NCBI RefSeq assembly: GCF_030345715.1
Contig: NZ_JAUASX010000013.1
Location: 1-64,000, forward strand
Direction: 5' to 3'
DNA length: 64,000 nt
Source of the DNA: Solimonas sp. SE-A11
GTDB lineage: Bacteria; Pseudomonadota; Gammaproteobacteria; Nevskiales; Nevskiaceae
This document shows positions 7,877-60,395 of the stretch, piece after piece. Positions within the stretch are counted from its first letter, which is position 1, and each line of letters begins with the position of its first letter. The translations under genes were made by a program, and so were the position numbers. Below the pieces are notes generated by a model that made no database searches, was not told where the DNA came from, and saw only the letters and a list, made by a program, of their open reading frames with translations.

Positions 7877-7877
7877 C

Positions 7878-8905: not shown

Positions 8906-8909
<4 letters not shown>

Positions 8910-36359: not shown

Positions 36360-36440
36360 GATTGCGCCCAGCTGCGGGCTTGCGTGCCTGAGCATCCGGC
36401 TTGCCCTTCCTGCGCGGAGTCGCGTGACGGAGCTTTCGGT

Positions 36441-36455: not shown

Positions 36456-36458
36456 GGC

Positions 36459-37316
36459 GTGAGCACTCGCCTTAACATCGATCTGCTGAGGAATTTCGTC
36501 GCCATCGCGGAGTCGCGCACGATGAGCCGGGCCGCCGACAAGGTCGGCCGGACCCAGGCGGCGCTGAGCCAGCAGGTCAAGCGCCTGGAGATGGAAGTGC
36601 AGCAAACGCTGATGATCCGCAGCGGGCGCGGCATCACGCTGACGGCGCAGGGCGAGCGGCTGTACCTGCATGCGCAGAACATCCTGCGCACGCACGACGA
36701 GGCGGTGGGCGAGCTGCTGGGCGTGAGCCTGGCAGGCGAGTTGCGGGTGGGCTGCCCGGAGGACTATGCGCTGGCCTTCCTGCCGCAACTGCTGCGGGAG
36801 TACTCCAAGCTGCACCCGCAGGTGCTGATCGAGGTGGTCTGCGAGCCGACCACGCGGCTGCTGGAGAAGATCAAGAGCCAGGTCCTGGACATCGCCATTG
36901 TCTCGGAGCCCGACAGTTCACAGCGTGACCGCTTCCTGCGCCGCGAACAGTTCGTCTGGGTGGGGGTCAAGGGCAGTGATGCGCATAACCGCGATCCCGT
37001 GCAGCTGGCGCTGTCGGATCCCGATACCCTGGACTATCAGGCCGCCACTTCGCGGCTGGAGCGTGCGGGGCGCCAGTACCGCATCGCCTATGCCAGCGGC
37101 AGCATGGCCGGCCTGATGGCGGTAGTGCGCTCCGGCCAGGCGATCTCGGTGCTGACGCAGTGCGCGGTCCCGCCCGACCTGTATGCGCTGCCGCCGTCGA
37201 GCCGGCTGCCCAAGCTGCCGTCGATCGGCATTACCGTCAAGACCGGTCGGCACAATTCGTCGCAACTGCTGCGCAGCTTCGAATCACACCTGCGGGCGAT
37301 GCTGCCCACGATCTAG
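36459..37316 (+). CDS. LysR-family regulator of the Aib-peptide locus
   Basis: This encodes 285 residues from GTG 36459. The winged HTH lies at about 5-62 (LLRNFVAIAESRTMSRAADK, QAALSQQVKRLEMEVQQTLM). The effector domain is about 90-285 (LRVGCPEDYALAFLPQLLREY). It is the first gene of the putative catabolic region and reads toward it. A dyad that recurs in front of the hydrolase and TonB-receptor operons lies just before its own start, making it the likely local regulator. The inducer may be a peptide or Aib-derived compound (inference). Confidence 0.9.
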   Translation: MSTRLNIDLLRNFVAIAESRTMSRAADKVGRTQAALSQQVKRLEMEVQQTLMIRSGRGITLTAQGERLYLHAQNILRTHDEAVGELLGVSLAGELRVGCPEDYALAFLPQLLREYSKLHPQVLIEVVCEPTTRLLEKIKSQVLDIAIVSEPDSSQRDRFLRREQFVWVGVKGSDAHNRDPVQLALSDPDTLDYQAATSRLERAGRQYRIAYASGSMAGLMAVVRSGQAISVLTQCAVPPDLYALPPSSRLPKLPSIGITVKTGRHNSSQLLRSFESHLRAMLPTI

Positions 37317-37377
37317 CCCCCCGTGAACACACGCGGCGCGCCAAGGGGCGGGCATGCGGATCGCAGCCCCCTGAACC

Positions 37378-37422
37378 ATAAGAGAATCTTATAACCAGCA
37401 TAAGAAGTATTGGCTTCTTGTG
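37378..37422 (+). promoter_or_regulatory. Conserved promoter block with palindrome, copy 1
   Basis: The palindrome ATAAGAGAATCTTAT (37378-37392) is followed by AGAAGTATTGGCTTC (37403-37417) and GTGA (37420-37423). The same arrangement is found at 42327. The palindrome resembles a LysR recognition site; the following block likely covers the activation site and a -10 (AAGTAT). It lies 149 bp before the chosen start of the ester-hydrolase gene. Confidence 0.75.
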
Positions 37423-37540
37423 AGGTAGGGCTGTGGGCAGAATGGCCGCAGCGCCCCTGGTTTTCCGGCTGACGGCAGTCGTGCAGCGGGTGCTGTGCCG
37501 CCCCTGGGGGCCGGCGCCGGTTCCCCAGCAAGGACGGGTC

Positions 37541-39376
37541 GTGAGCGACATTCCAGAAGATTTCAAGGCCAGGGTGCTCGATCCGGGCTTCAGCGAGCGC
37601 GTCGAGATGATCCCGATGCGCGACGGCGTGAAGCTGAAGACCTATATCTACTTGCCGCAGAACGCGAAGGACGCGGGCACGCTGATCATGCGCACGCCCT
37701 ACAACGCCTCGCTGTTCAGGGCGCGGATGGCGGGCGACAAGTACCTGCTTGCCGGCTACATCCGCGTGATCCAGGACGTGCGCGGCAAGTACGGCTCGGA
37801 GGGCGATTACTACGTCACGCAGGCTACGCGCGGGCCCTGCAACACCACCGACACCGATCACTCGACCGATGCCTGGGACACCATCGATTGGCTGGTGAAG
37901 AACCTGCCGGAGTCCAATGGCCGGGTTGGCATCTTCGGCAACTCCTATGTCGGCTTCACCAGCGCCATGGCGCTGCTGGACCCGCATCCCGCGCTGAAGG
38001 CGGCAGTGCCCTCGGGCCCGCTGATCGACGCTTGGATGGGCGACGACTGGTTCCACTACGGCGCCTTCCGGCAGATGATGCTGGGCTTCGTGCACATGCA
38101 GAGCGGCCAGCGCGGCGCGGGCGTGCTCACGCCCAGCCAGACGCACGACAAGTACGAGGAATTCCTGCGCGCCGGCTCGGCCGGCGACTACATCCGCGAG
38201 TACGGCCTGGATCGCCTGCCCTTCGTGGCGCGCATGATGGAGCACCCGGCCTACGACGCGTACTGGCAGGCCTACGCGGTCGACAAGCGCCTGGTCGAGC
38301 GCCCGTCGACGGTGCCGACGCTGTGGACACAGGGCTTCTGGGACCAGGAGGACAATTGGGGCGCGAACCATGCCTGGCGTGCGCTGAAGCAGGCCGGGCA
38401 CGAGGCCAACAACTGGCTGGTGCTAGGCCCCTGGCACCACAACCAGGTATGGCGCACGGCGCCATCGATCGGGCCCATCCAGTGGCAGATCGACACCGCG
38501 CACCAGTACCACCAGGAGATCATGTTCCCGTTCCTGGACGAGCACCTGCGCGGCGGCCCGCCGGCGAACCTGGCGCGCGTCATGGCCTACAACACCGGCG
38601 AGAAGCGCTGGGAGCGCCTGGCGGACTGGCCCACGGTCTGCGACGAGCCGTACACCGCGGGCCTGCAGCCGCTGTACCTGCAGGCCGGCTCCGCGTTGTC
38701 CTTCAGCCGGCCCTCGCAGAAGGATGGTGGCGACACCTATTGCAGCGATCCGGCCAAGCCGGTCCCCTACCTGCCGCGGCCGGTGGTGGACCCCTTCGCC
38801 GAGCTGGGCACCGGCGTGCTCGGCAAGCCCTACGAGGCCTGGAGCACCAGCCTGGCGCAGGACCAGCGCTTCGTCGACGGCCGGCCGGACGTGCTGACTT
38901 ACGAGACGCCGGTGCTGACCGAGGCGCTGCACGTGCGCGGCATTCCGGTTGCCGATCTGCAGGCCATGACCACGGGCACCGACGGCGATTTCGTGGTGAA
39001 GCTGATCGACGTGTATCCGTCAAAGGATGCGGTCGATCCCGACAGCAGCGGCTACCAGTTGCCGATCGCCATGAACATCTTCCGCGGCCGCTACCGCGAG
39101 AGCTTCGAACAGCCCAGCGCCATTCCGGCCAACGAGCCGCAGCAGTACCGATTCGAGCTGCCCAACGTGAACCACGTGTTCAAGCCGGGGCATCGCATCA
39201 TGGTGCAGATCCAGTCGAGCTGGTTCCCGCTGTACGACCGCAATCCGCAGAGCTTCGTGCCGAACATCTTCGATGCGAAGCCTGGGGACTACCGCAAGGC
39301 GGATGTCACGCTGCTGCGTTCGGCGGAGCGGGCGTCGGCGGTGCTGCTGCCGGTGGTGAAGAAGGGCGCGGCCTGA
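37541..39376 (+). CDS. Alpha-amino-acid ester hydrolase (CocE/NonD superfamily)
   Basis: This encodes 611 residues from GTG 37541 (AAGGACGG upstream); in-frame starts at 37433 and 37442 would add 36 or 33 residues. It closely follows the Xanthomonas enzyme from IPMRDGVKL to the C-terminal jelly-roll. With this start, Ser135 (GIFGNSYVG) is the nucleophile, with Asp268 and His300. Asp169 (WMGDDWF), Glu270 and Asp271 (FWDQEDNW) reproduce the carboxylate cluster that grips a free alpha-amino group. Such enzymes cleave alpha-amino esters and amides, including ampicillin side chains. No signal peptide is convincing, though homologues are exported. It is first in the operon with the quinohaemoprotein. 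Confidence 0.9.
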   Translation: MSDIPEDFKARVLDPGFSERVEMIPMRDGVKLKTYIYLPQNAKDAGTLIMRTPYNASLFRARMAGDKYLLAGYIRVIQDVRGKYGSEGDYYVTQATRGPCNTTDTDHSTDAWDTIDWLVKNLPESNGRVGIFGNSYVGFTSAMALLDPHPALKAAVPSGPLIDAWMGDDWFHYGAFRQMMLGFVHMQSGQRGAGVLTPSQTHDKYEEFLRAGSAGDYIREYGLDRLPFVARMMEHPAYDAYWQAYAVDKRLVERPSTVPTLWTQGFWDQEDNWGANHAWRALKQAGHEANNWLVLGPWHHNQVWRTAPSIGPIQWQIDTAHQYHQEIMFPFLDEHLRGGPPANLARVMAYNTGEKRWERLADWPTVCDEPYTAGLQPLYLQAGSALSFSRPSQKDGGDTYCSDPAKPVPYLPRPVVDPFAELGTGVLGKPYEAWSTSLAQDQRFVDGRPDVLTYETPVLTEALHVRGIPVADLQAMTTGTDGDFVVKLIDVYPSKDAVDPDSSGYQLPIAMNIFRGRYRESFEQPSAIPANEPQQYRFELPNVNHVFKPGHRIMVQIQSSWFPLYDRNPQSFVPNIFDAKPGDYRKADVTLLRSAERASAVLLPVVKKGAA

Positions 39377-39428
39377 TCGGGTCTTGGCGTCAACAAGGGG
39401 TCTCTTCAGTTTTGAGGGTTGTATCGAG

Positions 39429-41669
39429 ATGCGAAACAAAACTTTCATTGTCGGGGCGCTGGCGGTCATCGTTGCCGCCGCGGCATTCTTCGCGCTGGGC
39501 GGCCCGGCGCTGCTCAAGGGCGAGAGGCGCTCGCAGATCGCGGCGGCTGCCGCCAATGGCGACTGGTTGATCGGTGGGCATGACGCGGGCCAAACCTATT
39601 CGTCGCCGCTGAAGAAGATCAACGCGGACAACGTCGGCCAGCTGGGCTTTGCCTGGAGCTATGATCTCAACACCACACACGGCCAGTCCTCGACCCCGGT
39701 GGTGGTGGACGGCGTGATGTACGTGAGCGCGCCCTGGGGCTTCGTGCATGCCCTGGATGCCCGCAGCGGCAAGGCGCTGTGGTCGTTCGACCCGAAGGTG
39801 GACAGCGCGATCACCAGCAAGGTCTGCTGCGGCATCACCAACCGCGGCCTGTCCTTCCACAAGGGCCGGGTATTCGTCGCCTCGATCGACGGCCGCTTGA
39901 TCGCGCTGGATGCCAGGACCGGCAAGATGGCCTGGGAAGTGGACACGATCATCGACCACGAGCGCGGCTACACGATCACCGGTTCCACCTACATCGCGGG
40001 GGACCTGGTGGTGATCGGCAATTCCGGCGCCGAGCTGGATGCGCGCGGCTACGTGACCGCCTACGACACGCAGAGCGGCGAGCAGCGCTGGCGCTTCTTC
40101 ACGGTGCCCAAGAACACTACGGGCCCGTTCGAGAACCCGGAACTGGAGATGGCTGCCAAGACCTGGGACCCGAACTCGTTCTGGGAGGTGGGCTTGGGCG
40201 GCACGGCCTGGGATGGCATGGCCTACGACGCGGAGTTGGGCCTGCTCTACGTCGGCGTGGGCAACTCCGCGCTGTATCCGCGCAAGCTGCGCAGCCCCTC
40301 GGGCGGCGACAACCTGTTCGTGTCCACGATCCTGGCGCTGCATGCCGACACCGGCCGGCTGGCCTGGCACTACCAGACCACGCCGGGCGACCAGTGGGAC
40401 TACACCGCTACGCAGAAGATGATCCTGGCAGACCTGGAGATCGACGGCCGCCAGCGCCAGGTGCTGATGCAGGCGCCGAAGAACGGCTTCTTCTATGTGC
40501 TGGACCGCGCGACCGGCGAGCTGCTGTCCGCCGAGCCCTATGTGCCGGTCACCTGGGCCTCGCACGTGGACATGAAGACAGGGCGCCCGGTGGAGACGGG
40601 TCAGGCCAGCTACTCGGAGGAGCCGCGGCTGGTGTTCCCGGGGCCTTCCGGGGGGCACAACTGGCATCCGATGGCCTTCAATGCGCAGACGCAACTGGTC
40701 TACATCCCTGCCATCGAGTTTCCTGCCATCTACTGGATTCCCAAGGAGCCGTTCAAGTACCAGAAGGGCGGCGTGAACCTGGGGGCGCTGTACACCTTCC
40801 CGATCGACAAGTCGGTTGACTGGGGCCCTTACGCGGAGGGAATGCCGAGTCTCGAAGAGCTGTCCAAGGGGCAGCCTGATACGACGATCCGTGGCTACCT
40901 GCGTGCCTGGGATCCGGTCGCCCACAAAGTGGCCTGGCAGGTGGAGACTTCCGAGCAGTGGGCCGGGCAGATGAATGCCATCTGGAATGGCGGCGGCGTG
41001 ATGACGACGGCCGGCGACCTGGTGTTCCAGGGCCGTTCCACCGGCTACCTCCATGCTTACCGTGCCTCCACGGGTGAACAGCTCGCGAAGGTCAACCTCG
41101 GCGTGAGCATCATGGCAGCGCCGATGACCTATGAGCTGGACGGCGAGCAGTACGTCGCCGTGATGGCGGGCTTCGGCGGCGCCCTCGGTGGCACGCATCC
41201 CGAGGGCACGGCGGCCTATCGCTACGGCAACGCCGGCAAGCTGATCGTGCTGCGCCTGGGTGGCGGCGCCGTGCCGCTGCCGGCCGAGATCAAGCGGGAT
41301 GCGAAGTTCGCCAAGCCGCCGGCCGAACGCCAGGGCACGGCGGAAACGGTGGCCCTGGGCAAGGAACTGTTCATGCGCCACTGCAGCATCTGCCACAAGA
41401 ACAACAGCGCCGGTGGCACGGTGCCGGACCTGCGGCGCATCAATGCCAAGACCTACGGCGAGTTCGAGGACATCGTGCTCGGCGGCATCCGTGCCACGCG
41501 CGGCATGGGTTCCTTCAAGGGCCAGCTGACGGCGCCGGAGGTGGAGGCCATCCGCACCTCCATCATTCATGACGCCTGGCAGGCCTACGAGAGCGAGCAG
41601 GGCCCGGTGGGCTCCGAGTCGCACAAGCCCAACACCCCGGAAGCCGACAAGGCAGGAGCCCAGAAGTGA
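39429..41669 (+). CDS. PQQ-dependent quinohaemoprotein alcohol dehydrogenase (type II)
   Basis: This 746-residue periplasmic dehydrogenase carries an N-terminal signal anchor (about 6-24). Eight-bladed propeller repeats such as GKALWSFDPK recur. The vicinal disulfide Cys133-Cys134 (SKVCCGITNRG) contacts PQQ. GDQWDYTATQ supplies the catalytic aspartate region. A C-terminal cytochrome c domain has CSICH at 652-656 and a candidate axial Met in GMGSF. Such enzymes oxidise primary or secondary alcohols and pass electrons to the respiratory chain. Inside this locus it could oxidise amino-alcohol ends of peptides (inference). No PQQ synthesis genes are in the window. Confidence 0.92.
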   Translation: MRNKTFIVGALAVIVAAAAFFALGGPALLKGERRSQIAAAAANGDWLIGGHDAGQTYSSPLKKINADNVGQLGFAWSYDLNTTHGQSSTPVVVDGVMYVSAPWGFVHALDARSGKALWSFDPKVDSAITSKVCCGITNRGLSFHKGRVFVASIDGRLIALDARTGKMAWEVDTIIDHERGYTITGSTYIAGDLVVIGNSGAELDARGYVTAYDTQSGEQRWRFFTVPKNTTGPFENPELEMAAKTWDPNSFWEVGLGGTAWDGMAYDAELGLLYVGVGNSALYPRKLRSPSGGDNLFVSTILALHADTGRLAWHYQTTPGDQWDYTATQKMILADLEIDGRQRQVLMQAPKNGFFYVLDRATGELLSAEPYVPVTWASHVDMKTGRPVETGQASYSEEPRLVFPGPSGGHNWHPMAFNAQTQLVYIPAIEFPAIYWIPKEPFKYQKGGVNLGALYTFPIDKSVDWGPYAEGMPSLEELSKGQPDTTIRGYLRAWDPVAHKVAWQVETSEQWAGQMNAIWNGGGVMTTAGDLVFQGRSTGYLHAYRASTGEQLAKVNLGVSIMAAPMTYELDGEQYVAVMAGFGGALGGTHPEGTAAYRYGNAGKLIVLRLGGGAVPLPAEIKRDAKFAKPPAERQGTAETVALGKELFMRHCSICHKNNSAGGTVPDLRRINAKTYGEFEDIVLGGIRATRGMGSFKGQLTAPEVEAIRTSIIHDAWQAYESEQGPVGSESHKPNTPEADKAGAQK

Positions 41670-42163
41670 CGATCAAGACCAAAGGGATGAAGGCGGTCCT
41701 ATTCGCCGCGGCCATGGCGGCGATGCCCGCGCAGGCGGCCGAGAAGGGCGGCGACAGCGCGCTGCGCGATGCCGAACGCATGATTGCGCGTTGCCTGGAT
41801 TACGTGGCGGCGCAGAAACTCACGCCGTTCAGCGTCGGCGTTATCGACGTCTCCGGCACGCTGGTGGCCTTCAAGCGCCAGGACGGCGCCTCGGCCGCCA
41901 CGGCGGAAGCCGCGCTGCTGAAGGCGCGGACCGCCCTGCGCCTGAACGCGCCCACGGAGGTGCTGGGGGCGGTGGCCGCGGCGGACGCGCCGACGCGGGA
42001 TGCCTTCCTGGTCATGCAGATGACGTCGCTGCCGGGCGGCATGCCGCTGGCCGACGACCAAGGCCGCGCCGTGGGCGCCGTGGGCGTCTCCGGCGGCACG
42101 GCCGAGCAGGATGCCGAGTGCGCCCGCCGCGCCGCTGCGCCGGCTCCGGCCAAGTCGAAGTAG
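41666..42163 (+). CDS. GlcG/HbpS-family (DUF336) periplasmic protein
   Basis: This encodes 165 residues with a GTG start overlapping the dehydrogenase stop. A signal peptide (KGMKAVLFAAAMAAMPAQA) precedes the DUF336 fold: LRDAERMIARCLDYVAAQK, SVGVIDVSGTLVAFKRQDGA and PGGMPLADDQGRAVGAVGVSG. Family members bind haem or cobalamin-related ligands, and several are encoded next to quinohaemoprotein dehydrogenases, where they probably assist the enzyme. Coupling here supports that role. Confidence 0.88.
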   Translation: MTIKTKGMKAVLFAAAMAAMPAQAAEKGGDSALRDAERMIARCLDYVAAQKLTPFSVGVIDVSGTLVAFKRQDGASAATAEAALLKARTALRLNAPTEVLGAVAAADAPTRDAFLVMQMTSLPGGMPLADDQGRAVGAVGVSGGTAEQDAECARRAAAPAPAKSK

Positions 42164-42213
42164 CGCCTCATCGCCGGGCCGCTCAGGCGCGGCGCTCCAC
42201 GCTTTTCGGGGGA

Positions 42214-42252
42214 GGCGGTCCCGCGGTTTCGCGGGATCGCCGCCGGTGTTTT
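42214..42252 (+). terminator. Intrinsic terminator ending the hydrolase/dehydrogenase operon
   Basis: GGCGGTCCCGCG (42214-42225) pairs along 12 positions with CGCGGGATCGCC (42230-42241), one G-U pair included, around loop GTTT. A GGTGTTTTG tail follows. It separates this operon from the TonB-receptor operon. Confidence 0.75.
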
Positions 42253-42326
42253 GTCCCGGCCTGCGGCAGCCCCTTTACGTGCAAAAAGCCTGTTGGCGCC
42301 TCGCTGCAATCCTCGTGCCCCGGGGC

Positions 42327-42371
42327 ATAAGAAAATCTTATGTTCAGAATTAGAAGTATTAGATTCGCGTG
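42327..42371 (+). promoter_or_regulatory. Conserved promoter block with palindrome, copy 2
   Basis: ATAAGAAAATCTTAT (42327-42341) is a near-perfect dyad, followed by AGAATTAGAAGTATTAGATT and CGTGA. It matches copy 1 at most positions over 45 bp. It lies 162 bp before the TonB-receptor ATG. The shared block suggests both operons respond to one regulator, most likely the LysR protein encoded at 36459. Confidence 0.78.
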
Positions 42372-42503
42372 AATCCGGACATCGTGTAGTTTCGATCCTG
42401 GCTCGCGATTCCTGGTACGGCGCAGCGGGCGGAAGGGGTCTTCCCGGGGCAAGGTGGCAACGGTGCTTCGGGATGGGATTGATCATCTGGACATGCATTC
42501 GAT

Positions 42504-45050
42504 ATGAGCAAACTGACGTTCGCTGGCACTCCCTGGGTACTTCCGTTCCGCCGGAGCGCGCTGTGCCTGGCCCTGTGGGCCTGCTTCGCTTCGGTGGCCA
42601 ACGCGCAGGAGCCTGCCGCCGGAGCAACGGCGGCCCCGGCTGCCGCGGAGGGCGATGCGGACGTCGACGCGGCGCTCGATGAACTGCTGGGCAGCGACTT
42701 CGACAGCCCAGCGCAGGACGCGGCGCCTGCGGCATCCGCCACCAGCGATGAGCCTGCCGCCCCGCAGCAAGCGGCGCAGCCGGCGCCAGCCAATGCCGTA
42801 GCGCAGGATCCCGCGAAGGATTCCTTCGAGGAACTCGACACGATCCCGGTGCTGGCGCGCGAGCCGCAGGTTCCGCAACCCCTTGCTGAACAGCCTCACC
42901 GTGCCCAGATCGAGGAGATCGTGGTCACGGCCACCAAGCGCGAGCAGTCGGTGCGCGAGATCCCCGTCACCATCAACGTGTTGAGTGGCGACAAGCTGGC
43001 CGCGCAGGGTGCCCGTGAGTTGCAGGACTTCGTCGATCAGGTGCCGGGCCTGCAGATGCAGGACGTGGCGGTGACCAGCGCGCGCAAGGTCGTGATCCGC
43101 GGCATCGCCCCCGACAACACCACGAACCAGACCGTGGGCACCGTGCTGGGCGACGTTCCGCTGGGCGATCCCATTGGCAATGCCACGGTCATCGATCCAG
43201 ACACCTTCGATCTCAAGACCGTCGAAGTGCTGAAGGGGCCGCAGGGCACCCTGTTCGGAGCCTCGTCCCTGGCCGGCATCATCCGCTACGTGCCGAACGG
43301 ACCGACGCTGGGGGCCTGGGAGGGCAAGGCCTTTGTCGAGTGGACGTCGATCAAGGATGGCGGTTCCACCCCCACCTTCGGCGGCGCGATCAACATGCCG
43401 GTAGGCGAGACGCTGGCATTCCGCTTGGCTGGCATCAGCGACCATCGTCCGGGCGTGATCGACATCGACAACCCGCGCCGGCAGGAAAAGGATGCTGACG
43501 ACGCACGCAAGTGGGCCGGCCGCGCGATGCTGCGTTGGGAACCGAGCGACGAACTGAGCATCAATGCCTGGTACATGGCCCAGGAGCGGCGTGCCGACGA
43601 GGCCTTCTTCGTGACCAACTTCGAGGCCGACTACACGCGATACGACTCTCCGGAGTCTTCGCCCACGCGCCGTTACTTCGATCTGACGACGTTGGACGTG
43701 CGCTACCGCTTCGACTGGGCGACGCTGGTCTCCCTGACGGCACTCCAGAACAAGGAGAACGAGTTCGACTCCGACACCTCCTACGCGCTGGTCGCTCCAG
43801 CCGGCGAACTCGGCATCGCCGTGGGAAGAAGCAAGCGCATCGCCGACGCCACGGGCTTCATGCAGGAGCTCCGGTTGGTCTCCGAGGGTGACGGCCCCTG
43901 GACCTGGCAGGCCGGTGCATTCTTCAGCAGCTTCGAGGCGGACATCTACTCGGACATCTACGTTCCCCGGACACGACTGCCGGGGCTGAATCTGCTGCCG
44001 GAAGTCCTCCGCAACGCCATCTTCACCGAGCGTGGCCTATCGTTGGGCAACTCCCACCTCAGCCCGCTGGACGCGGAGGAAACCGCCTTGTTCGGCGAAG
44101 TCACGCGGGCCCTGGGCCCCGTGGATGTGACGGTGGGCGGCCGTCTGTACCAGACCCAGGTCAGCGGCACCTCCAGGACAGCCGGCCTGCTGCCCTTCAT
44201 CTCGAACCGCCGGTCGGAAACCATCGAGGACCTGGATGTCGAAGGGAAGGGCTTCAGCCCGAAGTTCTCTCTCGCTTGGCAGGCCACCGACGATGTGCGG
44301 GTTTACGGTACGGTGTCGCGCGGCTTCCAGTACGGCGGCGTGAACGCCATCGCCATTCCCAGCCCCACCTCCACGGCACCCAAGACCTACGAGTCCAGCG
44401 AGCTCTGGACCTATGAGGCAGGCATCCGTACCAACTGGCTTGACGGCAGCCTGCACGCCGATCTGACTGCGTTCTACCAGCAGTGGAGCAATGCACAGGT
44501 CTCGCAGATCGCTCCTCCGGCCGAAGCCTACGTCGATAATGTGGGCGAGGTCGAGGTCGCCGGACTCGAAATGGCGATCCAGTACCTCACTCCAATCGAG
44601 GGCCTGTCGCTGGATCTCAATGGGAGTTACCTCGAGTCCAAGACGGCCGTCGTTTTCGAAGATAGCGAGGGCAACGACATTCCTGAAGGAACGACGATGC
44701 CGAACGCACCGCGCATCCAGGCGGCGGCGGGAATCAACTACTCGCGGGTCTTCGGGGCTTCCTGGGCCACGAACACCGGTCTGCAGTACTCCTACGCCGA
44801 CAAGGCCTGGGGCAACATCGAACACACCGGCAAGCTCGATGCGCGCAATCTTCTCAACTTCAACTTCTCGGTTACCCGCAGCGACCTCGCCTTTGCCCCC
44901 AGCTTGAGCTTGATCGTGAACAACCTCACCGATCAGAGGAAGATCGTCTCCGCGACGAGGACCGAGGATCCGAACTTCATCGAGAATACTCCCGTGGGCT
45001 ACACCCGCCCGCGTACCCTTATTTTGCGCATCGGTGCGGAGTTCAAATGA
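42504..45050 (+). CDS. TonB-dependent outer-membrane receptor
   Basis: This encodes 848 residues. The signal peptide ends at about Ala34. A long Ala/Pro/Asp-rich stretch (35-135), unusual for the family, precedes the TonB box IEEIVVTA (136-143). The plug spans about 145-270 (EIPVTINVLSGDKL to VLKGPQGTLFGASSLAG), then a 22-stranded barrel ending with RPRTLILRIGAEFK. It is of the OAR/iron-independent type common for sugars, peptides and aromatic substrates. It is coupled by ATGA overlap to the acylase lipoprotein gene, as in a paired uptake/processing system. Its ligand is presumably the bulky peptide of this locus. Confidence 0.92.
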   Translation: MSKLTFAGTPWVLPFRRSALCLALWACFASVANAQEPAAGATAAPAAAEGDADVDAALDELLGSDFDSPAQDAAPAASATSDEPAAPQQAAQPAPANAVAQDPAKDSFEELDTIPVLAREPQVPQPLAEQPHRAQIEEIVVTATKREQSVREIPVTINVLSGDKLAAQGARELQDFVDQVPGLQMQDVAVTSARKVVIRGIAPDNTTNQTVGTVLGDVPLGDPIGNATVIDPDTFDLKTVEVLKGPQGTLFGASSLAGIIRYVPNGPTLGAWEGKAFVEWTSIKDGGSTPTFGGAINMPVGETLAFRLAGISDHRPGVIDIDNPRRQEKDADDARKWAGRAMLRWEPSDELSINAWYMAQERRADEAFFVTNFEADYTRYDSPESSPTRRYFDLTTLDVRYRFDWATLVSLTALQNKENEFDSDTSYALVAPAGELGIAVGRSKRIADATGFMQELRLVSEGDGPWTWQAGAFFSSFEADIYSDIYVPRTRLPGLNLLPEVLRNAIFTERGLSLGNSHLSPLDAEETALFGEVTRALGPVDVTVGGRLYQTQVSGTSRTAGLLPFISNRRSETIEDLDVEGKGFSPKFSLAWQATDDVRVYGTVSRGFQYGGVNAIAIPSPTSTAPKTYESSELWTYEAGIRTNWLDGSLHADLTAFYQQWSNAQVSQIAPPAEAYVDNVGEVEVAGLEMAIQYLTPIEGLSLDLNGSYLESKTAVVFEDSEGNDIPEGTTMPNAPRIQAAAGINYSRVFGASWATNTGLQYSYADKAWGNIEHTGKLDARNLLNFNFSVTRSDLAFAPSLSLIVNNLTDQRKIVSATRTEDPNFIENTPVGYTRPRTLILRIGAEFK

Positions 45051-47353
45051 AAATTCCCTTCCTGAATGAATCAGCCCGCCTGCGCCCGCTGCCGTTGCTC
45101 GGCGCAGCCCTTCTCGGCCTTACGGCCTGCGCCAGTGCGCCGAAGCAGGAGACGACGAAGTACGAGGTAAGCATCACGCGCACCCAGTTCGGCATTCCCC
45201 ACATCAAGGCTAACGACTTCCAGAGCCTGGGTTTCGGTGCGGCCTATACGCGCGCCCAGGACAATGTCTGCCTGCTGGCGGACACCTACATGAGTTTCGC
45301 CGGCGAGCGCTCGAAGTACTTCGGCGCCGACGGCGATGCCCTGATCGGCATCCGGCCGGCGAAGAACATCGACAACGACGTCTTCCAGCTGGCGGTGACC
45401 GACAAGGCTGCGCTGCGTGCGGCTTTCCAGAAGGCCTCGCCGGACTACCGGGCACTGGTGGATGGCTGGGTTGCGGGCTACAACCGCTATCTACGCGATC
45501 ATCGTGACAGCCTGCCGGCGGCCTGCGCCGGCAAGCCCTGGGTCCGCGAGATCACGCAGGACGACGTGCTGGTTTCCTTCAACACCTTCTCGATCCTGTC
45601 TTCTTCGGCCCTGTTCGCCAGGCAGATCGCGACCGCGGCGCCTCCGGGCGCGACGGCACGCCAGGACGCGGGTGCCGCGCTCGCCACGGCGGAAGCGTTC
45701 GACGGCATGCCGCTGGGCAGCAATGGCTGGGCCTTCGGCGGTGAAGCGACGGCCAACGGCAAGGGCCTGGTCCTGGCCAATCCGCACTTCCCCTGGATCG
45801 GCCCCGCGCGCTTCTACGAAGTGCACCTGACCATTCCCGGCAAGTTCGACGTGGCCGGCGCGGCGATCATGACCCTGCCTTTCGTGGGCATCGGCTTCAA
45901 CAAGGACGTCGCCTGGACCCATACGTCGGACATGGCGGCGCACATGACGCTGTTCCAGCTCACGCTGGATCCGCAGGATCCGACCGCCTACATCGTGGAC
46001 GGCAAGCGTGAGGCGATGAGCCGCCGCGACATCCAGGTGCAGGACAAGGATGGCCGGACCATCGCCCGGACGATCTACGCCAGCCGCCATGGCCTGCTGA
46101 TCTCGGTGCCGGGGACGGAGTTCGAATGGACGCGGCAGAAGGCTTACGCGGTGGTCGATGCCAACGCGAACAACCTGCGCAGCGGTGACACCTACCTGGA
46201 CATGGCCCGCGCCAGCAGCGTGCAGGATATTCGCCAGACGCTAGGTCGCACGCTGGGCGTGCCGGCCTTCAACACGCTGGCGGCGGATCGCAACGGTGAC
46301 GCGCTCTACGCCGACATCACCCCGGTGCCGAACGTGCCGGGGGATCTCTTCGCCAGCTGCGGCACTGTCCATGATCGCCTGCCGGGCCACCTGCAGGATA
46401 TCTATTTACTCGATGGCAGCCGGGCGGCCTGCGATTGGGCGGAGTCGCCTGGCAACGTGGAGCCCAACCTCCTGCCGGCCTCGCTGCAGGCCGCGCTGGT
46501 CCGCCGCGACTACGTGCAGAACAGCAACGACAGCTATCGCTACTCCAACCCGGCCGAGCCTTTGCAGCTGAGCCCCATCATGGGCCGCGAGCCCGGCCTG
46601 GGCCGCCTGCGTACGCGCTCCGGCGTCGAGGAGATCGGCCGCGTGCTGAAGGGCGGTCGCTTCGATATCGACCTGGCCGCCGAGACGATGCTCGGCAACA
46701 AATTCTTCGCGGCCGGGCTGGCGCTGCCGACGCTGCTGGACCTCTGCAAGCGCAAGAAGGCGCCCACCGAGGCTTGCGCGGCGCTGGCGAAGTGGGATGG
46801 CAAGGCCGAACTCGACAGCCGCGGTGCGATGCTGTTCTCGCTGTTCTGGCCCAAGGTCGAGAACCGCCCCGACGTCTGGAAGGTCGCCTACGACGCCAAC
46901 GACCCCCTCAACACCCCGAGAGGTTTTGCCGCGGCGGGCAAGGCTGCCGACGAGGTACTCGCCGAGTTGGCCGCTGCCGCGGAAAGCATGAAGAAGATGG
47001 GCTTCGCGCCGGACGCCAGGCTGGGAGACGTCCAGTTCGCCTTGCGTGGTGAGGAACGCATTCCTATCTCCGGCTCCTCGACCGGCGGTGTCCTCAACTA
47101 CGCCAAGGGCATGCCGACGCCCAAGGGCTACGTCCTGATGCACGGCGCCAGCTACATGCAGGCGGTGACCTTCGACGACCAGGGCCCGGTGGCCAAGGCC
47201 ATCCTCAGTTACTCGCAGTCCACCGATCCGGCGTCGCCTCACTACGCCGACCAGACGCGCGAATTCTCGAAGAAGAAGCTGCACCGCTACCCGTTCTCCG
47301 CCGAGGAGATCGCCGCGGACGCTATCGCCGAGCCGGTGACGCTGCGGCAGTAG
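45047..47353 (+). CDS. Penicillin-acylase-family (Ntn) lipoprotein
   Basis: This encodes 768 residues with lipobox LGLTAC (Cys28). The alpha/beta precursor is autoprocessed at Gly224-Ser225: FDGMPLGSNGWAFGG makes Ser225 the N-terminal nucleophile. FNTLAADRNGDALYADITP supplies the oxyanion region. The family includes AHL acylases PvdQ/QuiP, aculeacin and penicillin acylases, all removing acyl groups from amides. Being lipid-anchored and coupled to the TonB receptor, it could deacylate or open an N-capped peptide at the envelope. Quorum-signal degradation is an alternative, though the context does not favour it. Confidence 0.9.
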   Translation: MKIPFLNESARLRPLPLLGAALLGLTACASAPKQETTKYEVSITRTQFGIPHIKANDFQSLGFGAAYTRAQDNVCLLADTYMSFAGERSKYFGADGDALIGIRPAKNIDNDVFQLAVTDKAALRAAFQKASPDYRALVDGWVAGYNRYLRDHRDSLPAACAGKPWVREITQDDVLVSFNTFSILSSSALFARQIATAAPPGATARQDAGAALATAEAFDGMPLGSNGWAFGGEATANGKGLVLANPHFPWIGPARFYEVHLTIPGKFDVAGAAIMTLPFVGIGFNKDVAWTHTSDMAAHMTLFQLTLDPQDPTAYIVDGKREAMSRRDIQVQDKDGRTIARTIYASRHGLLISVPGTEFEWTRQKAYAVVDANANNLRSGDTYLDMARASSVQDIRQTLGRTLGVPAFNTLAADRNGDALYADITPVPNVPGDLFASCGTVHDRLPGHLQDIYLLDGSRAACDWAESPGNVEPNLLPASLQAALVRRDYVQNSNDSYRYSNPAEPLQLSPIMGREPGLGRLRTRSGVEEIGRVLKGGRFDIDLAAETMLGNKFFAAGLALPTLLDLCKRKKAPTEACAALAKWDGKAELDSRGAMLFSLFWPKVENRPDVWKVAYDANDPLNTPRGFAAAGKAADEVLAELAAAAESMKKMGFAPDARLGDVQFALRGEERIPISGSSTGGVLNYAKGMPTPKGYVLMHGASYMQAVTFDDQGPVAKAILSYSQSTDPASPHYADQTREFSKKKLHRYPFSAEEIAADAIAEPVTLRQ

Positions 47354-47427
47354 GCCGCGCAGGCTGCATCCCAGATAACCAATGAATTGCGGCGGGTGAC
47401 GCCGCTGTACTCGATACGAGGTCCGCT

Positions 47428-48306
47428 GTGCTCAAACTTCAGAACGTCTGCCACACCTATCCCAACGGCTTCCGCGCGCTGGATGGCGTCACGCTGGATA
47501 TCCCATTGGGCATGTTCGGCCTGTTGGGCCCCAATGGCGCCGGCAAGTCTTCCCTGATGCGCTCCATCGCCACGCTGCAGGTCCCGACCTCCGGCTCCAT
47601 CCAGTTCGGCGAGATCGACGTGCTGGCCGATCCCGAGGCGTTGCGCCGGACCCTTGGCTACCTGCCGCAGGACTTTGGCGTCTATCCGCGAGTGACGGCC
47701 TACGAACTGCTGAACCATATCGCGGTACTGAAAGGTTACGCCGCCCGCGGCGAGCGGCGCGACGTGGTGGAGGCGCTCCTGACCAAGGTGAACCTCTGGA
47801 ACTTCCGCGACAAGGCCGTGGCCGGCTTTTCCGGCGGCATGCGTCAGCGCTGGGGCATCGCCCAGGCGCTGATGGGAGACCCGCGCCTGGTGATCGTGGA
47901 CGAGCCGACGGCCGGCCTGGACCCCGAGGAGAGCAACCGCTTCCTGAACCTGCTGGCGGAGATCGCGGAGAACGTCGTCGTGATCCTCTCCACGCACATC
48001 GTCGAGGACATCTCCAAGCTCTGCCAGAACACCGCGATGCTGATGGGCGGCAAGATCGTCAAGCAGGGCACCCCGCAGGAGCTCGTGGAGCAGGTGCGCG
48101 GCCGTGTCTGGCGCAAGACCATCGGCAAGGACGAGCTCGAGGCGCACCGCGATGCCTATAACGTGATCGCGACCCGGTTGTACGGCGGCCGCACCTACAT
48201 CCACGTACTGGCGGACAGCAATCCGGGCGAGGGCTTCACTGCTGCGGAGGGCAGTCTCGAGGACGCCTACTTCTCGACCCTGATCAGCGGGCGCCGCGCC
48301 GCCTGA
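47428..48306 (+). CDS. ABC transporter ATP-binding protein
   Basis: This encodes 292 residues from GTG 47428 with GAGG seven bases upstream. Walker A is GLLGPNGAGKSS (Lys40), signature FSGGMRQR, Walker B LVIVDEPTAGLD and the switch histidine in STHIVED. It belongs to the ABC-2 exporter type. It lies nine bases before the permease-peptidase fusion gene, with which it forms one transporter. It follows the acylase by 74 bp, possibly in the same transcript. Confidence 0.92.
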   Translation: MLKLQNVCHTYPNGFRALDGVTLDIPLGMFGLLGPNGAGKSSLMRSIATLQVPTSGSIQFGEIDVLADPEALRRTLGYLPQDFGVYPRVTAYELLNHIAVLKGYAARGERRDVVEALLTKVNLWNFRDKAVAGFSGGMRQRWGIAQALMGDPRLVIVDEPTAGLDPEESNRFLNLLAEIAENVVVILSTHIVEDISKLCQNTAMLMGGKIVKQGTPQELVEQVRGRVWRKTIGKDELEAHRDAYNVIATRLYGGRTYIHVLADSNPGEGFTAAEGSLEDAYFSTLISGRRAA

Positions 48307-48315
48307 GATGCCGAC

Positions 48316-51300
48316 ATGCTAAGCCACGTTGCTCGATTCGAGCTGCGGTACCAAGCGACCTCGGCGATCTTCTGGATCACCAGTCTGATCTTCTTTGCGC
48401 TGACCTTCTGGTTCGTCGCCTCTGACAGCCTGCGAGTCGGCTGGGGCGGATATGTCTTCCGCAACTCGCCGTACACGATCGCCCTGAACAGCATGATCAT
48501 GGCGCTGTTCGGAATCTTCATCGTCACCTCGTTCGTCTCCAACGTGATCCTGCGCGATGACGAGACCCGCTTCGGCCAGATCATCCGGGTGACCGGCCTG
48601 ACGCCGTTCGATTACCTGTTCGGACGGTTCCTGGGCGCCTTTGGTGCCAGCGCACTGGTTTTCCTGAGCGTGCCCCTGGGCGCGATAGCCGCGTCGGCGC
48701 TACCGAGCCTCGATCCGGCGACGGTGGGGCCGTTCAATCTCGGTGCCTACGTGCACGCGTACTTCATGCTGTGCCTGCCCACCCTGTTCATCCTGGGAGC
48801 CTGCCTCTTTGCCGTAGCCACGACGACGCGTTCGATGCTGGCACCGTATGTCGCGGCGCTGGTGGCGGTCATGGCTTATCTGCTGTCTTCGCAATACATC
48901 AACCAGGCCGGGGTCAAGGAATGGGCCGCATTGTTCGATCCGTTCGGCCTTGCGGCCTTCAAGCTCGCCACCGAGTACTGGACACCTAGCGAGCGCAACT
49001 CCCAGCTCGCGCCGTTCTCGGGCTCGATGCTGGTGAACCGCGCGCTGTGGCTCTCCATCGCACTGGCGGCACTGGCCTGGACCTGGCGCAGCTTCCTGCG
49101 CGAGGCCAGCGGGCAGGGCAAGCCGGCGAAGGTCGCCGCGGAGCCGACGGCTCCGGAGGTCGCACGGGCCTCGCCGCCCTCGTTGCAGGGGCCGGCTTCG
49201 CGTTCGCTCGGCTGGTCGGCACTGGCAGCCCTGACCCGCTTCGACGTACTGAGCGTGGTGCGCAATCCATCCTTCGTGATCCTGCTCGCGATGGCGATCT
49301 CCAACTCCATCATCGGCCTGTGGTATGCCGGCGACAACTTCGGCATCAACACCCTGCCTGTGACGCGCATCATGATCAATGCGCTGATCGCAGAGTTTCC
49401 GATGATTGCTCTGATCATCGCCGCCTATTACGCCGGCGAACTGGTTTGGCGCGACCGCGAGCGCCGTATCGAGCAGATCATCGATGCAACGCCTGCTCCC
49501 GACTGGGTGTTTGTGCTGCCGAAGATCATCGCCATCGCGCTCGTGCTCGTCGCCATGGTCACGATCAGTGCGTTCACTGCGATCGCCGTCCAGCTGCTCA
49601 AGGGGCATTACCAGCTCGAGCTCTCCAAGTACCTGGTGTGGTACCTGCTGCCCTGGCTGATCACCATGGTGCAGTATGCGGTGCTGGTGGTGTTCATCCA
49701 GCTGCTGGTGCCGAACAAGTACGGCGGCCTGCTGGTCACGGTGCTGATCGTCGCCGCCCAGATCGCCTTCCCCAAGCTTGGCTGGGAAAATCACCTGTAC
49801 CAGTATGCCAGCACCTCGCCCGTGCCGCTCACCGATATGAACGGACAGGGTGAGTACGCAAAGTACGCGGCCTGGTTCCGCGCGTACTGGACGGCCGTGG
49901 CGCTGCTGTTAGTGGTGCTGTCCTACGCCTTGTGGCGGCGTGGCTCGTCCTCGCCCCTCAAGCAGCGGCTCAAGCGCCTGCCTTCGCAGTTGCGCGGAGC
50001 GCCTGGCTGGGTCCTGGCCGTCGCTGTGCTAGCCATGCTGGGCACCGGCGGGTTCGTGCACTACAACACGCATGTTCTTAACGCGTGGCGCACGGGTATC
50101 GACAGCTCCAACTGGTCGGCAGAGTTCGAGCGGCAACTCTTCAAGTACAAGGCCCTCACGCCTCCGCGCATCACGGATGTGAAGCTGGACATCGATCTGT
50201 TCACCGAGGTGCCCAGGGCGGTCATCCGCGGCAGCTATGTCGTGCAGAACAAGAGCGACAAGCCGATCAGCGACGTGCCGGTGTTCTGGGCTCGCCAGCT
50301 CGAGAAGGGGACCTGGCTGGGTACGGACGCCGTCGCCGACCTGAAGCTCAAGTCCTTCGAGCTGGAAGGTGCGCGCATGGTCAAGGAGATCCCGGACCTG
50401 CACTTCCGGATCTACCGCTTCGACATGCCGCTGCAGCCGGGACAGACGGCGATGGTGCGGTTCGAGGCGGTGCGTGAGCAGATCGGATTCCGTAACAACA
50501 ACAACGAGAACCGCATCGTCGAGAACGGCAGCTTCCTGAACAACTGGGAGATCACGCCGGTATTCGGCGTGCACAACATCTACGCGTTGCAGGACCGGAC
50601 CGACCGACGCAAGCATGGCCTGCCGGACGAACTGCGTCCGCCGAAGCTGGATGAGCATGGCGATCGTCGCAACAGCTACTTCCGGCCGGATAGCGACTGG
50701 GTCAACGCCGAGCTGACGATCTCCGCTCCCAAGGACCAGACCGTGGTGGCCCCTGGCTCCCGAGTGGACTCGCGGGTCGAGGGAGAGCGGCGCATCACGC
50801 GCTTCAAGACCACGAGCCCGATCCATCATTTTTTCACCGTCCTTTCGGCCCGCTACGAGCTACGCCAGGAGCAGTGGAACGACGTGTCCCTGGAGGTGTA
50901 CTACCACCCGCCGCATGCCTACAACGTCGAGAAGATGCTGACGGTGATGAGGGAGTCGCTCGACTACTACACCAAGCACTTCAGCCCGTATCAGTTCGGC
51001 GAGCTCCGCATCGTGGAGTTCCCGGCCTACCGCAACTTCGCCCAGGCCTACCCGGGAACCGTGGCCTACTCGGAGGCTGCCGGCTTCCTGCTGGCCCCCC
51101 CGCGCCCGGACCGGCATGACGGCCTGACCTACGTGACCGCCCACGAGATCGGACACCAGTGGTGGGCGCACCAGGTGATCGGTGCGGACATGCAGGGCCA
51201 GACAGTGTTGACGGAAACACTGGCCCAATACTCGGCGCTCATGGTGATGGAGCGCATGTACGGCAAGAACGAGATCCGCCGCTTCCTCAAGTACTCGCTC

Positions 51301-51930
51301 GACGCCTACCTGCGTGCGCGCGGCACCGACACGATCGGGGAGGTACCGCTGCGGGAGGTCGAGGAGCAGGCACACATCCGCTACCTCAAGGGCGGAATGG
51401 TCATGTACCTGCTCAAGGACCGGATGGGCGAGGACGCGGTCAATCGCGCGCTGCGCTCGATGGTCCACGACTATGCGTACAAGACGCCTTATCCGACCTC
51501 GCTTGACCTGATCAAGCGGCTCCGCGCAGAGGCTGGCCCCGAGCACCAGCAGCTGATCACCGACCTGTTCGAGAAGATCACGATGTACGACGTCCGCGTC
51601 GTCGAGGCTCGCAGTAGCCGCCTGACCGATGGTCGCTGGAGCGTGGATCTCGTCCTGGACGCCAGCAAGCGCTATGCCGATGAGAAGGGCAACGAGCATG
51701 AGGCCCCGCTAGATGAGGTGTTCGACATCGGCGTGTTCACGGCCGAGCCCGGAAAGCACGACTTCACCACCGACAGCGTGCTGAGCATGCGGCCGGAACG
51801 TCTGCGCAGCGGCCGCCAGACGGTCACCGTGGTCGTCGACAAGGAGCCCAAGTACGTCGGCGTGGATCCCTACAACAAGTACGTCGACGGCAACTCGGAC
51901 GACAACGTCCTGGCCCTGACTGCCCGCTAA
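48316..51930 (+). CDS. ABC-2 permease fused to an M1-type aminopeptidase
   Basis: This 1204-residue protein has an N-terminal half (about 1-590) with twelve or more hydrophobic helices of an ABC-2 permease in two blocks. The C-terminal half (about 600-1204) is a gluzincin peptidase. HEIGHQWW is at 943-950 and the third zinc ligand is in TVLTETLAQ about 20 residues on. The substrate loop AYPGTVAYSE replaces the classical GxMEN. Such fusions are known in Sphingomonadales and Xanthomonadales but their function is not established. The peptidase domain most likely faces the periplasm. In this locus it could trim peptides during transport (inference). Confidence 0.92.
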   Translation: MLSHVARFELRYQATSAIFWITSLIFFALTFWFVASDSLRVGWGGYVFRNSPYTIALNSMIMALFGIFIVTSFVSNVILRDDETRFGQIIRVTGLTPFDYLFGRFLGAFGASALVFLSVPLGAIAASALPSLDPATVGPFNLGAYVHAYFMLCLPTLFILGACLFAVATTTRSMLAPYVAALVAVMAYLLSSQYINQAGVKEWAALFDPFGLAAFKLATEYWTPSERNSQLAPFSGSMLVNRALWLSIALAALAWTWRSFLREASGQGKPAKVAAEPTAPEVARASPPSLQGPASRSLGWSALAALTRFDVLSVVRNPSFVILLAMAISNSIIGLWYAGDNFGINTLPVTRIMINALIAEFPMIALIIAAYYAGELVWRDRERRIEQIIDATPAPDWVFVLPKIIAIALVLVAMVTISAFTAIAVQLLKGHYQLELSKYLVWYLLPWLITMVQYAVLVVFIQLLVPNKYGGLLVTVLIVAAQIAFPKLGWENHLYQYASTSPVPLTDMNGQGEYAKYAAWFRAYWTAVALLLVVLSYALWRRGSSSPLKQRLKRLPSQLRGAPGWVLAVAVLAMLGTGGFVHYNTHVLNAWRTGIDSSNWSAEFERQLFKYKALTPPRITDVKLDIDLFTEVPRAVIRGSYVVQNKSDKPISDVPVFWARQLEKGTWLGTDAVADLKLKSFELEGARMVKEIPDLHFRIYRFDMPLQPGQTAMVRFEAVREQIGFRNNNNENRIVENGSFLNNWEITPVFGVHNIYALQDRTDRRKHGLPDELRPPKLDEHGDRRNSYFRPDSDWVNAELTISAPKDQTVVAPGSRVDSRVEGERRITRFKTTSPIHHFFTVLSARYELRQEQWNDVSLEVYYHPPHAYNVEKMLTVMRESLDYYTKHFSPYQFGELRIVEFPAYRNFAQAYPGTVAYSEAAGFLLAPPRPDRHDGLTYVTAHEIGHQWWAHQVIGADMQGQTVLTETLAQYSALMVMERMYGKNEIRRFLKYSLDAYLRARGTDTIGEVPLREVEEQAHIRYLKGGMVMYLLKDRMGEDAVNRALRSMVHDYAYKTPYPTSLDLIKRLRAEAGPEHQQLITDLFEKITMYDVRVVEARSSRLTDGRWSVDLVLDASKRYADEKGNEHEAPLDEVFDIGVFTAEPGKHDFTTDSVLSMRPERLRSGRQTVTVVVDKEPKYVGVDPYNKYVDGNSDDNVLALTAR

Positions 51931-51954
51931 CCGCCGTCCGCATCAACAGACAAC

Positions 51955-53331
<1,377 letters not shown>

Positions 53332-53334: not shown

Positions 53335-54480
53335 ATGCTCATCGGCACGCCCAAGGAAATCAAGAATCACGAGTACCGCGTGGGCCTGACGCCCGCCGGC
53401 GTGCGCGAGCTCACCAGCCGCGGCCACCAGGTGATGATCGAGGCGGGGGCGGGCCTGGGCATCGGCATCCCCGACGAGGCCTACCGCAACGCGGGCGCCG
53501 AGCTGGTGGCCACCGCCGGCGAGGTATTCCGCCGCGCCGAGATGATCGTGAAGGTCAAGGAACCGCAGCCGGGCGAGTGCGCCATGCTGCGCGAGGGCCA
53601 GGTGCTGTTCACCTACCTGCACCTGGCGCCGGATCCGGCGCAGACGCGGGCGTTGGTGGATTCCGGCTGCATCGCGATCGCCTACGAGACGGTGACCGAT
53701 GGCCGCGGCGGCCTGCCGCTGCTGGCGCCCATGAGCGAAGTGGCGGGGCGCATGTCGATCCAGGCCGGCGCGCATGCCATCGAGAAGGCGCAGGGCGGCA
53801 ACGGCGTGCTGCTGGGCGGCGTGCCCGGCGTGGCGCCGGCCGACGTGCTGATCATCGGTGGCGGCGTGGTGGGCTACAACGCCGCGCGCATCGCCGTGGG
53901 CATGGGCGCCGACGTGACCATCCTGGACCGCTCCATCGCCCGACTGAACTGGCTGGACAGCAGCTTCGACGGACGCCTGAAGACGCTGTACTCCACCGCC
54001 GACGCGCTGGAAGCCTGCGTGACCAAGGCCGACCTGGTGATCGGCGCCGTGCTGGTGCCGGGCGCCACCGCGCCCAAGCTGGTGACGCGCAAGATGCTCA
54101 AGACCATGAAGCCGGGCGCGGTGATCGTGGACGTGGCCATCGACCAGGGCGGCTGTTTCGAGACCTCCAAGCCGACCACGCACCAGCAGCCGACCTACAC
54201 CGTGGACGGCATCGTGCATTACTGCGTGGCGAACATGCCGGGCGGTGTGGCGCGGACCTCCACCTTCGCGCTGACCAACGCCACCCTGCCCTATGTCATT
54301 GCCCTGGCCGACAAGGGCTACCGGGCAGCGGCGCTGGCCGACAGCAACCTGCGCGAAGGCCTCAACATCCATCTCGGCAAGGTCACCTACAAGGCCGTGG
54401 CGGATGCGCTCGCCTACGACTACTGCCCGGTGAACGACGTGCTCGGTGCGGTGCCGGCGACGCGGCTCGGCACGCACTGA
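53335..54480 (+). CDS. ald: Alanine dehydrogenase
   Basis: This 381-residue enzyme catalyses NAD-dependent L-alanine to pyruvate and ammonia. Arg15 and Lys75 (VKVKEPQ) and His96 (TYLHLAPD) occupy the known catalytic positions, and [22 protein letters not shown] is the Rossmann motif. [16 protein letters not shown] is the family signature. It begins three bases after dgdA, so the two are strongly cotranslated. It returns the alanine made by DgdA to pyruvate, the co-substrate of DgdA, closing a cycle. Confidence 0.96.
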
Positions 54481-56593: not shown

Positions 56594-56601
56594 GGAATGA
56601 C

Positions 56602-58170: not shown

Positions 58171-58178
58171 GGCCCCAC

Positions 58179-59771: not shown

Positions 59772-60395
59772 TTGCCGCGGGATGCGCGTTACCCGGCCCC
59801 AGGAGTGTGTCCGTTGCAACTAGGTAGCTCATCCGCAGTGGCCAATCTGCGGGGCCATGGACCCGCGGCGTTCGAGTGCAACATCAAGACGATCCTGCAG
59901 GGCTACCTGTGGAACTCGCCGGAGGCCCTGGTGTTCTTCGACCACCGTGGGGCGTTGCTCTACCAGAGCGCCCAGGGAGAGCTGCAGTTCAAGCGCTGGA
60001 ATCGCACGCTGGCCCACGGACAGGAATCCATGAGCCTGCCGGCGGCGCTGTTTCCGGTCCTGAAGGATGGCAAGGGACCGACGCAACTACAGCATCCGGC
60101 GCTGTCCGGCCTGAGCGCAAACCTGGAACCCACGCCGGGAGGATTCGTGCTGCGCATCCTGAGCGATCAGCTGCAGGACGGGCCCGAGCCGCTGTCGGCT
60201 CAGGCCCTGGCCGCGCTGCAGAAGCTGTCCCGATCCGAGCAGCGTGTGGCGCGCCTGGTGGTCAAGGGCCTGCGCAACGACCAGATCGCCGAGCGGCTGT
60301 GCCGCTCCACGCGCACCGTGGAGTACCAGCTGAACAGCGCGTTCCGGAAGCTGGGCGTACGCAACCGCGTGCAGTTGTCGCTGCTGATCAGTTAA
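59772..60395 (+). CDS. LuxR-type transcriptional regulator
   Basis: This encodes 207 residues. The C-terminal LuxR helix-turn-helix spans about 147-205 (LSRSEQRVARLVVKGLRNDQ, then STRTVEYQLNSAFRKLGVRN). The N-terminal portion (about 40-140) resembles a PAS-like sensor (SPEALVFFDHRGALLYQSA). TTG 59772 follows GAGGAG closely; later TTG/GTG starts at 59814 or 59837 are possible. It ends the row of peptide-metabolism genes, 24 bp after the second POT gene, and may be a second regulator of the locus. Confidence 0.85.
   Translation: MPRDARYPAPGVCPLQLGSSSAVANLRGHGPAAFECNIKTILQGYLWNSPEALVFFDHRGALLYQSAQGELQFKRWNRTLAHGQESMSLPAALFPVLKDGKGPTQLQHPALSGLSANLEPTPGGFVLRILSDQLQDGPEPLSAQALAALQKLSRSEQRVARLVVKGLRNDQIAERLCRSTRTVEYQLNSAFRKLGVRNRVQLSLLIS

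Follow-up and report, generated by a model that had tools for sequence, protein, structure and literature searches.

The TonB-dependent receptor and the adjoining acylase lipoprotein probably head an operon that is controlled by Aib and serves the use of N-acylated Aib peptides, among which fungal peptaibols are the likeliest substrates. What is unusual about the pair is its surroundings, a run of 14 plus-strand genes extending from 36459 to 60395 (Table 1). These positions refer to the window, by which we mean the whole stretch of DNA that was analysed, 64,000 nucleotides from Solimonas sp. SE-A11. We also lean slightly towards the wider view that the block is a dedicated peptaibol utilization locus, in which a DgdR-type regulator sensing released Aib would switch on uptake by the receptor, N-deacylation by an acylase with an altered pocket, oxidation of the C-terminal alcohol, peptidases, symporters and Aib catabolism. 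The basis is provided by gene families, synteny in two species, a DgdR orthologue and predicted operators at two promoters, and from these we infer the peptide ligand, the order of the steps, their locations and the regulation.

Table 1. Genes and predicted operators of the cluster, with their positions in the window.
Feature	Position	Strand	Details
LysR-type regulator, DgdR orthologue	36459..37316	+	opens the cluster
Predicted DgdR operator before the S15/AEH-like gene	37374..37422	+	score 22.6, second in the window
S15 / alpha-amino acid ester hydrolase (AEH)-like enzyme	37538..39376	+	708.6 bits to 2b4k; start inferred
Type II quinohaemoprotein alcohol dehydrogenase with C-terminal cytochrome c domain	39429..41669	+	614.9 bits to 1kv9
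HbpS-like protein	41666..42163	+	PF03928, 87.8 bits
Predicted DgdR operator before the receptor	42323..42371	+	score 24.8, best in the window; ends 133 bases before the receptor
TonB-dependent receptor	42504..45050	+	848 aa; PF00593, 118.6 bits; PF07715, 57.1 bits
Ntn (penicillin amidase family) acylase lipoprotein, PvdQ-like, with changed acyl pocket	45047..47353	+	768 aa; PF01804, 435.2 bits
ABC transporter ATPase	47428..48306	+	PF00005
ABC-2 type permease fused to M1 aminopeptidase domain	48316..51930	+	PF01433, 47.2 bits; HEIGH
2,2-dialkylglycine decarboxylase (DGD)	52027..53331	+	615.4 bits to DGD 1d7r
Alanine dehydrogenase	53335..54480	+	TIGR00518, 549.9 bits (cut-off 391.85)
M13 (neprilysin/PepO-like) peptidase	54521..56593	+	PF05649, PF01431; lipobox LAGC; HEIGH; start inferred
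POT family proton-oligopeptide symporter 1	56590..58170	+	PF00854, 258.6 bits
POT family proton-oligopeptide symporter 2	58113..59747	+	PF00854, 228.4 bits; start unrefined
LuxR-type regulator, right edge of the conserved block	59772..60395	+	PF00196, 47.0 bits

The stop codon of the receptor and the start codon of the acylase, both on the plus strand, share the four bases ATGA (45047–45050), as the preliminary description had read them, and GGAG lies immediately 5' of the acylase ATG. Translational coupling of the two genes is therefore plausible from the sequence and would be nothing special. Since other four-base overlaps occur in the window (8906–8909, 41666–41669 and 56590–56593), the ATGA is not distinctive of this pair. 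In Solimonas sp. BWSM_106 the acylase starts either at a GTG in the same place, so that the shared bases are GTGA, or at an ATG 15 bases downstream. Across the two Solimonas the tightness of the junction is kept, while the ATGA itself is not. Two features of the acylase pointed out earlier are borne out, a lipobox (L-T-A-C) ending at Cys28 and an autoprocessing site at Gly224-Ser225, where Ser225 corresponds in the alignment to the first residue of the PvdQ β chain. A membrane-anchored acylase is ordinary in this family, because 15 of the 22 other acylase rows also contain a lipobox-like motif. Structure predictions from two-sequence alignments gave a mean pLDDT of 28.8 for the acylase and 27.1 for the receptor.

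The acylase scores above the cut-off of the penicillin amidase/Ntn hydrolase family PF01804, with its Gly-Ser site, His β23 and Asn β269, and falls outside the curated PvdQ equivalog NF051460 (648.2 bits, cut-off 950). PvdQ is its closest solved structure by sequence, at 40% identity. The catalytic positions are retained and several residues of the pocket are changed. In a comparison of 46 rows, the acylase has Phe at β187 (Val in 43 rows), Ser at β70 (Val in 44), Tyr at β162 (Phe or Trp in 44, Tyr in 2) and Phe at α146 (Leu in 39), where the α-chain numbering takes what we assume to be a 23-residue signal. At β186 it has Ala, and Trp is found there in 45 of the 46 rows, or in 42 of 43 distinct rows when the same-gene pairs L010/L090, L011/L091 and L013/L088 are each counted once; only L001, a paralogue from the same genome, departs from this and carries Pro. 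L004 (no frame found) and L008 (the same gene as L087) had been left out of the comparison beforehand. Passages of PMC5474475 name Val β70 as an oxyanion-hole residue and Trp β162 and Trp β187 as lining of the acyl pocket; the second pocket Trp falls at β186 in the present numbering. The pocket changes would fit a different acyl group or leaving group. A homoserine-lactone role of the acylase seems less likely, because the acyl-pocket residues changed here are near-invariant in its relatives.

The receptor carries a TonB-box-like EEIVVTA at residue 137 and has many relatives of 40–50% identity in genomes without DGD. Its dN/dS of 0.27 is the highest of the 13 genes tested between the two Solimonas, and its identity is 66% (L044 492–3065), compared with 83–99% for most neighbours and 77% for the ABC-M1 fusion. 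The receptor may be adapting to different ligands in the two species.

Among the other products, the assignment of DGD is firm, with a score to the solved 1d7r far above the 198 bits of the next class III aminotransferase family. The S15 protein, aligned to 2b4k, conserves Ser205, Asp239, Asp338, Glu340, Asp341 and the catalytic His (A. turbidans numbering). According to passages of PMC3890990, AEH has a Ser-Asp-His triad and a carboxylate cluster of three acidic residues that bind the free amino group of the substrate. The hydrolase is probably cytoplasmic, since no obvious signal peptide is seen from its inferred start. An in-frame TGA in four AEH homologues was set aside; it lies outside the tblastn alignment and is probably a normal stop. 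The alcohol dehydrogenase is of type II, with 573.4 bits to TIGR03075 (cut-off 480) and a CSICH motif. The permease-M1 fusion matches ABC2_membrane_3 at 30.0 bits, below the cut-off of 31.6, and the M13 peptidase is a probable lipoprotein by its lipobox.

The regulator that opens the cluster is 53–56% identical to six LysR proteins, all encoded divergently beside DGD, from four Rhizobiales, Burkholderia arboris (55%) and Caballeronia, and 27% identical to the sole unrelated LysR found in 32 DGD loci searched; the stretches covered for the remaining loci contained no LysR protein of this kind. We take the repressor of B. cepacia DGD to be a LysR-type protein called DgdR. The existence of a repressor gene for that DGD is given by the title of a reference cited in PMC10169451. 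A two-part site in one register is common to the six outside DGD intergenic regions. An ungapped 49-base matrix was made from these six outside promoters only. When both strands of the window are scanned with it, the top two matches are the predicted operators before the receptor and the S15/AEH-like gene, in the same register as in the DGD promoters. The third-ranked match in the 64 kb scores 10.9 and overlaps the second. As controls, the best score is 13.4 in 30 Markov windows, 19.2 in 18 acylase loci (607 kb with both strands included) and 9.6 with the reversed matrix; one of 200 column-permuted matrices exceeds the real one (36.1) and the next reaches 19.7. The equivalent sites in the second Solimonas score 34.9 (hydrolase) and 31.8 (receptor). 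That genome also has a third, weaker operator-like site (14.7, L074 7619–7667), which lies outside the shared block and adjoins a PhyH-domain gene (7693–8409).

LysR boxes have the form T-N11-A, and the upstream halves of the sites, for example ATAAGAGAATCTTAT, agree with it. The 18-letter pattern ATNAGAASTATTNGNTTC, a consensus composed after the window sites had been inspected, has exact matches at only two places per genome in both Solimonas, all within the cluster, and none in eight relatives. With up to two mismatches it is found at four places in each Solimonas genome (0 and 1 for the reversed control) and in four of the eight relatives, there at about the frequency of the control. No operator-like site lies directly before the window DGD, so control of DGD would need read-through from the receptor promoter, and this must pass a GC-rich hairpin of 11 pairs (51955–51982) between the ABC-M1 gene and DGD. 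The hairpin is a possible attenuator or processing site; a counterpart was not seen by eye in the second Solimonas. No sigma-70 promoters were found in 36300–53000, a result that is uninformative. If control by read-through is right, the main operon of the Aib regulon would begin with the receptor gene.

Solimonas sp. BWSM_106 (G323; loci L044, L074 and L075) has the whole 14-gene block with its order unchanged, and the pair of receptor and acylase, whose conservation the preliminary description had proposed as a check, is thus kept in a second Solimonas. Protein identities are 97% for the LysR regulator, 92% for the hydrolase, 83% each for the alcohol dehydrogenase and HbpS, 89% for the acylase, 93% for the ABC ATPase, 99% for DGD, 95% for alanine dehydrogenase, 89% for M13, 89 and 87% for the two POT symporters and 70% for the LuxR-type regulator. 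Thirteen of the 14 block genes were tested for dN/dS between the window and BWSM_106, with values of 0.04–0.27. BWSM_106 has an extra gene of the S9 prolyl oligopeptidase family between M13 and POT1 (L044 14600–16693) which is absent from the window. The cluster is known from two genomes of one genus. DGD occurs in 2 of 58 family genomes (E up to 1e-100), and the same two are the ones with an acylase of this kind (90% identity); any acylase match occurs in 33 of the 58 (E up to 1e-80), the others being 37–42% identical. Across 398 phylum genomes, our own included, the acylase finds five others at 40–47% identity (E up to 1e-150), and in plasmids 109 records, all below 60% identity, with a best covering match of 44%.

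The 29 other DGD loci, with flanks of up to 10 kb that in several cases were much shorter, were searched by tblastn using 16 window proteins. In none of the 29 did a relative of the receptor, the acylase, the hydrolase, the alcohol dehydrogenase, M13 or POT reach 90 bits, and ten loci were additionally inspected by eye from frame starts. A receptor beside the acylase as a general pattern was considered and rejected: when five receptors served as tblastn queries (E up to 0.001), all 24 loci examined around other acylases were without a receptor in flanks of 5.5–10.3 kb a side (2.3 and 3.5 kb for L087). These loci are a selected subset of the acylase places, and a very distant receptor could escape such a search. 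The same search detected 11 of 11 known receptor loci. With one receptor as query, none was found in 18 of 18 and 5 of 5 other acylase loci. Pfam scanning of 37 frames of at least 550 aa, some of them antisense, in 17 of 19 acylase loci gave no receptor family among the 25 of 51 families listed.

Because the pair clusters with DGD, the Aib enzyme, behind a predicted DgdR operator, import and uncapping of an N-acylated Aib peptide is its best reading. To this extent the import-and-uncapping unit suggested in the preliminary description stands, but not as a compact two-gene device, since receptor and acylase belong to the 14-gene block. A direct hand-over of the ligand from the receptor to the anchored acylase, also put forward there, gains no support here. 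The receptor would bring the capped peptide across the outer membrane, the lipoprotein acylase would take off the N-acyl cap, and oxidation of the amino alcohol at the C terminus would fall to the quinohaemoprotein alcohol dehydrogenase. Cleavage of the chain by the M13 endopeptidase and the M1 domain would follow, the two POT symporters would take in short peptides, and the AEH-like hydrolase would free residues from free N termini. DGD would convert Aib (and isovaline) to ketone and CO2 with formation of alanine, which alanine dehydrogenase would convert back to pyruvate, the compound that takes up the amino group in the DGD reaction; acetone would pass to acetone carboxylase, encoded elsewhere in the genome. 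The gamma subunit of this carboxylase was found in all four genus genomes searched, with or without DGD. Free Aib or isovaline would lift the repression by DgdR. The alcohol dehydrogenase step is weakened because a PqqC search gave no match in either cluster-bearing genome, the control genomes being equally silent. It may also be that this dehydrogenase and the HbpS-like protein act on other alcohols.

The peptidases and POT symporters have general functions, and it could be argued that the block is a general oligopeptide-use cluster with an inserted DGD-DgdR pair, with Aib peptides not the main substrate. The additional S9 peptidase in the second Solimonas and the faster divergence of the receptor (66% against 77–99% for its neighbours) are in keeping with this. 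However, the predicted DgdR operators precede the receptor and hydrolase genes, with none directly ahead of DGD, and therefore the peptide genes appear to be under the Aib signal; we consider this alternative unlikely. It is less probable still that the acylase is a quorum-quenching or siderophore-maturing relative of PvdQ and the receptor a siderophore receptor, both chance neighbours of amino-acid genes. PvdQ is indeed the closest solved structure, with 648.2 bits to NF051460, TonB-siderophor is the NCBIfam model that the receptor matches best (135.9 bits, cut-off 223.5), and a haem-related HbpS-like gene lies directly upstream. But the cut-offs of both models are missed widely, the pocket is changed (β186 Trp to Ala, β70 Val to Ser), the pair is syntenic with DGD in two species with a DgdR-type operator before the receptor, and the families found in the cluster include none related to iron other than that of the HbpS-like gene.

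The alpha-amino acid ester hydrolases are the nearest relatives of the S15 protein, and the acylase is in PF01804; together the two resemble hydrolases of β-lactam side chains, which could suggest a cluster that scavenges β-lactam-like or other amides. We regard this as very improbable, as it leaves the DGD, DgdR, M13, M1 and POT genes and the operators unexplained.

Peptaibols end in an amino alcohol, usually with an N-acyl cap. Their protease resistance is due to Aib and the capped ends, an account that draws in part on passages of PMC10169451. In the biosphere Aib is found in fungal peptide antibiotics and is consumed by DGD, as parts of PMC7782822 and PMC10169451 state, and the abstract of PMC12192607 mentions C-terminal alcohol groups on peptaibols. 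Among the matches listed from the open-licence literature (titles and abstract openings, with subscription journals mostly outside this scope) there was no bacterial gene set for dismantling peptaibols. The N-acylated Aib peptide reading supplies candidate genes for each step of peptaibol breakdown, together with a regulator and a predicted operator, and includes enzymes possibly able to strip both the N-acyl and the C-terminal alcohol caps. If true, a fungal membrane antibiotic would be turned into bacterial food.

The locus resembles several known systems in part. With the DGD-DgdR system of Burkholderia cepacia, whose genes we take to be dgdA and dgdR, it shares the decarboxylase, a regulator with 55% identity to the B. 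arboris LysR and an operator-like sequence in the same register. In the six compared DGD loci, regulator and DGD are divergent neighbours, whereas in the window the two are separated by 14.7 kb of genes for uptake and hydrolysis, and it is these genes that the operators precede. The acylase is like PvdQ-type N-acylases in its Ntn fold family, N-terminal Ser, His β23, Asn β269 and 40% identity, but it is a predicted lipoprotein, is changed at β70, β162, β186 and β187, and adjoins a TonB receptor. Bacterial Aib catabolism is also described in parts of PMC7782822 for AibH1H2 of Rhodococcus wratislaviensis, there by a monooxygenase route acting on free Aib and not by DGD. For yeast DGD1-DGD2, Aib use is proposed in passages of PMC10169451 as a response to peptaibols; this system is eukaryotic, and the pair of genes characterised there encodes the decarboxylase and its regulator, without uptake or uncapping genes. 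The analogy to SusCD-like pairs drawn in the preliminary description holds for the logic of polysaccharide utilization loci, with an outer-membrane receptor, hydrolases, an inner-membrane importer and a regulator together, but not for kinship: the receptor scores 28.9 bits against the SusC/RagA model TIGR04056 (cut-off 368), no SusD family was found in Pfam scans of the cluster, and the genes are for peptides, not glycans. The locus would thus work like a utilization locus built on an Aib regulon, with an acylase that its sequence places in the penicillin amidase family and outside the PvdQ equivalog.
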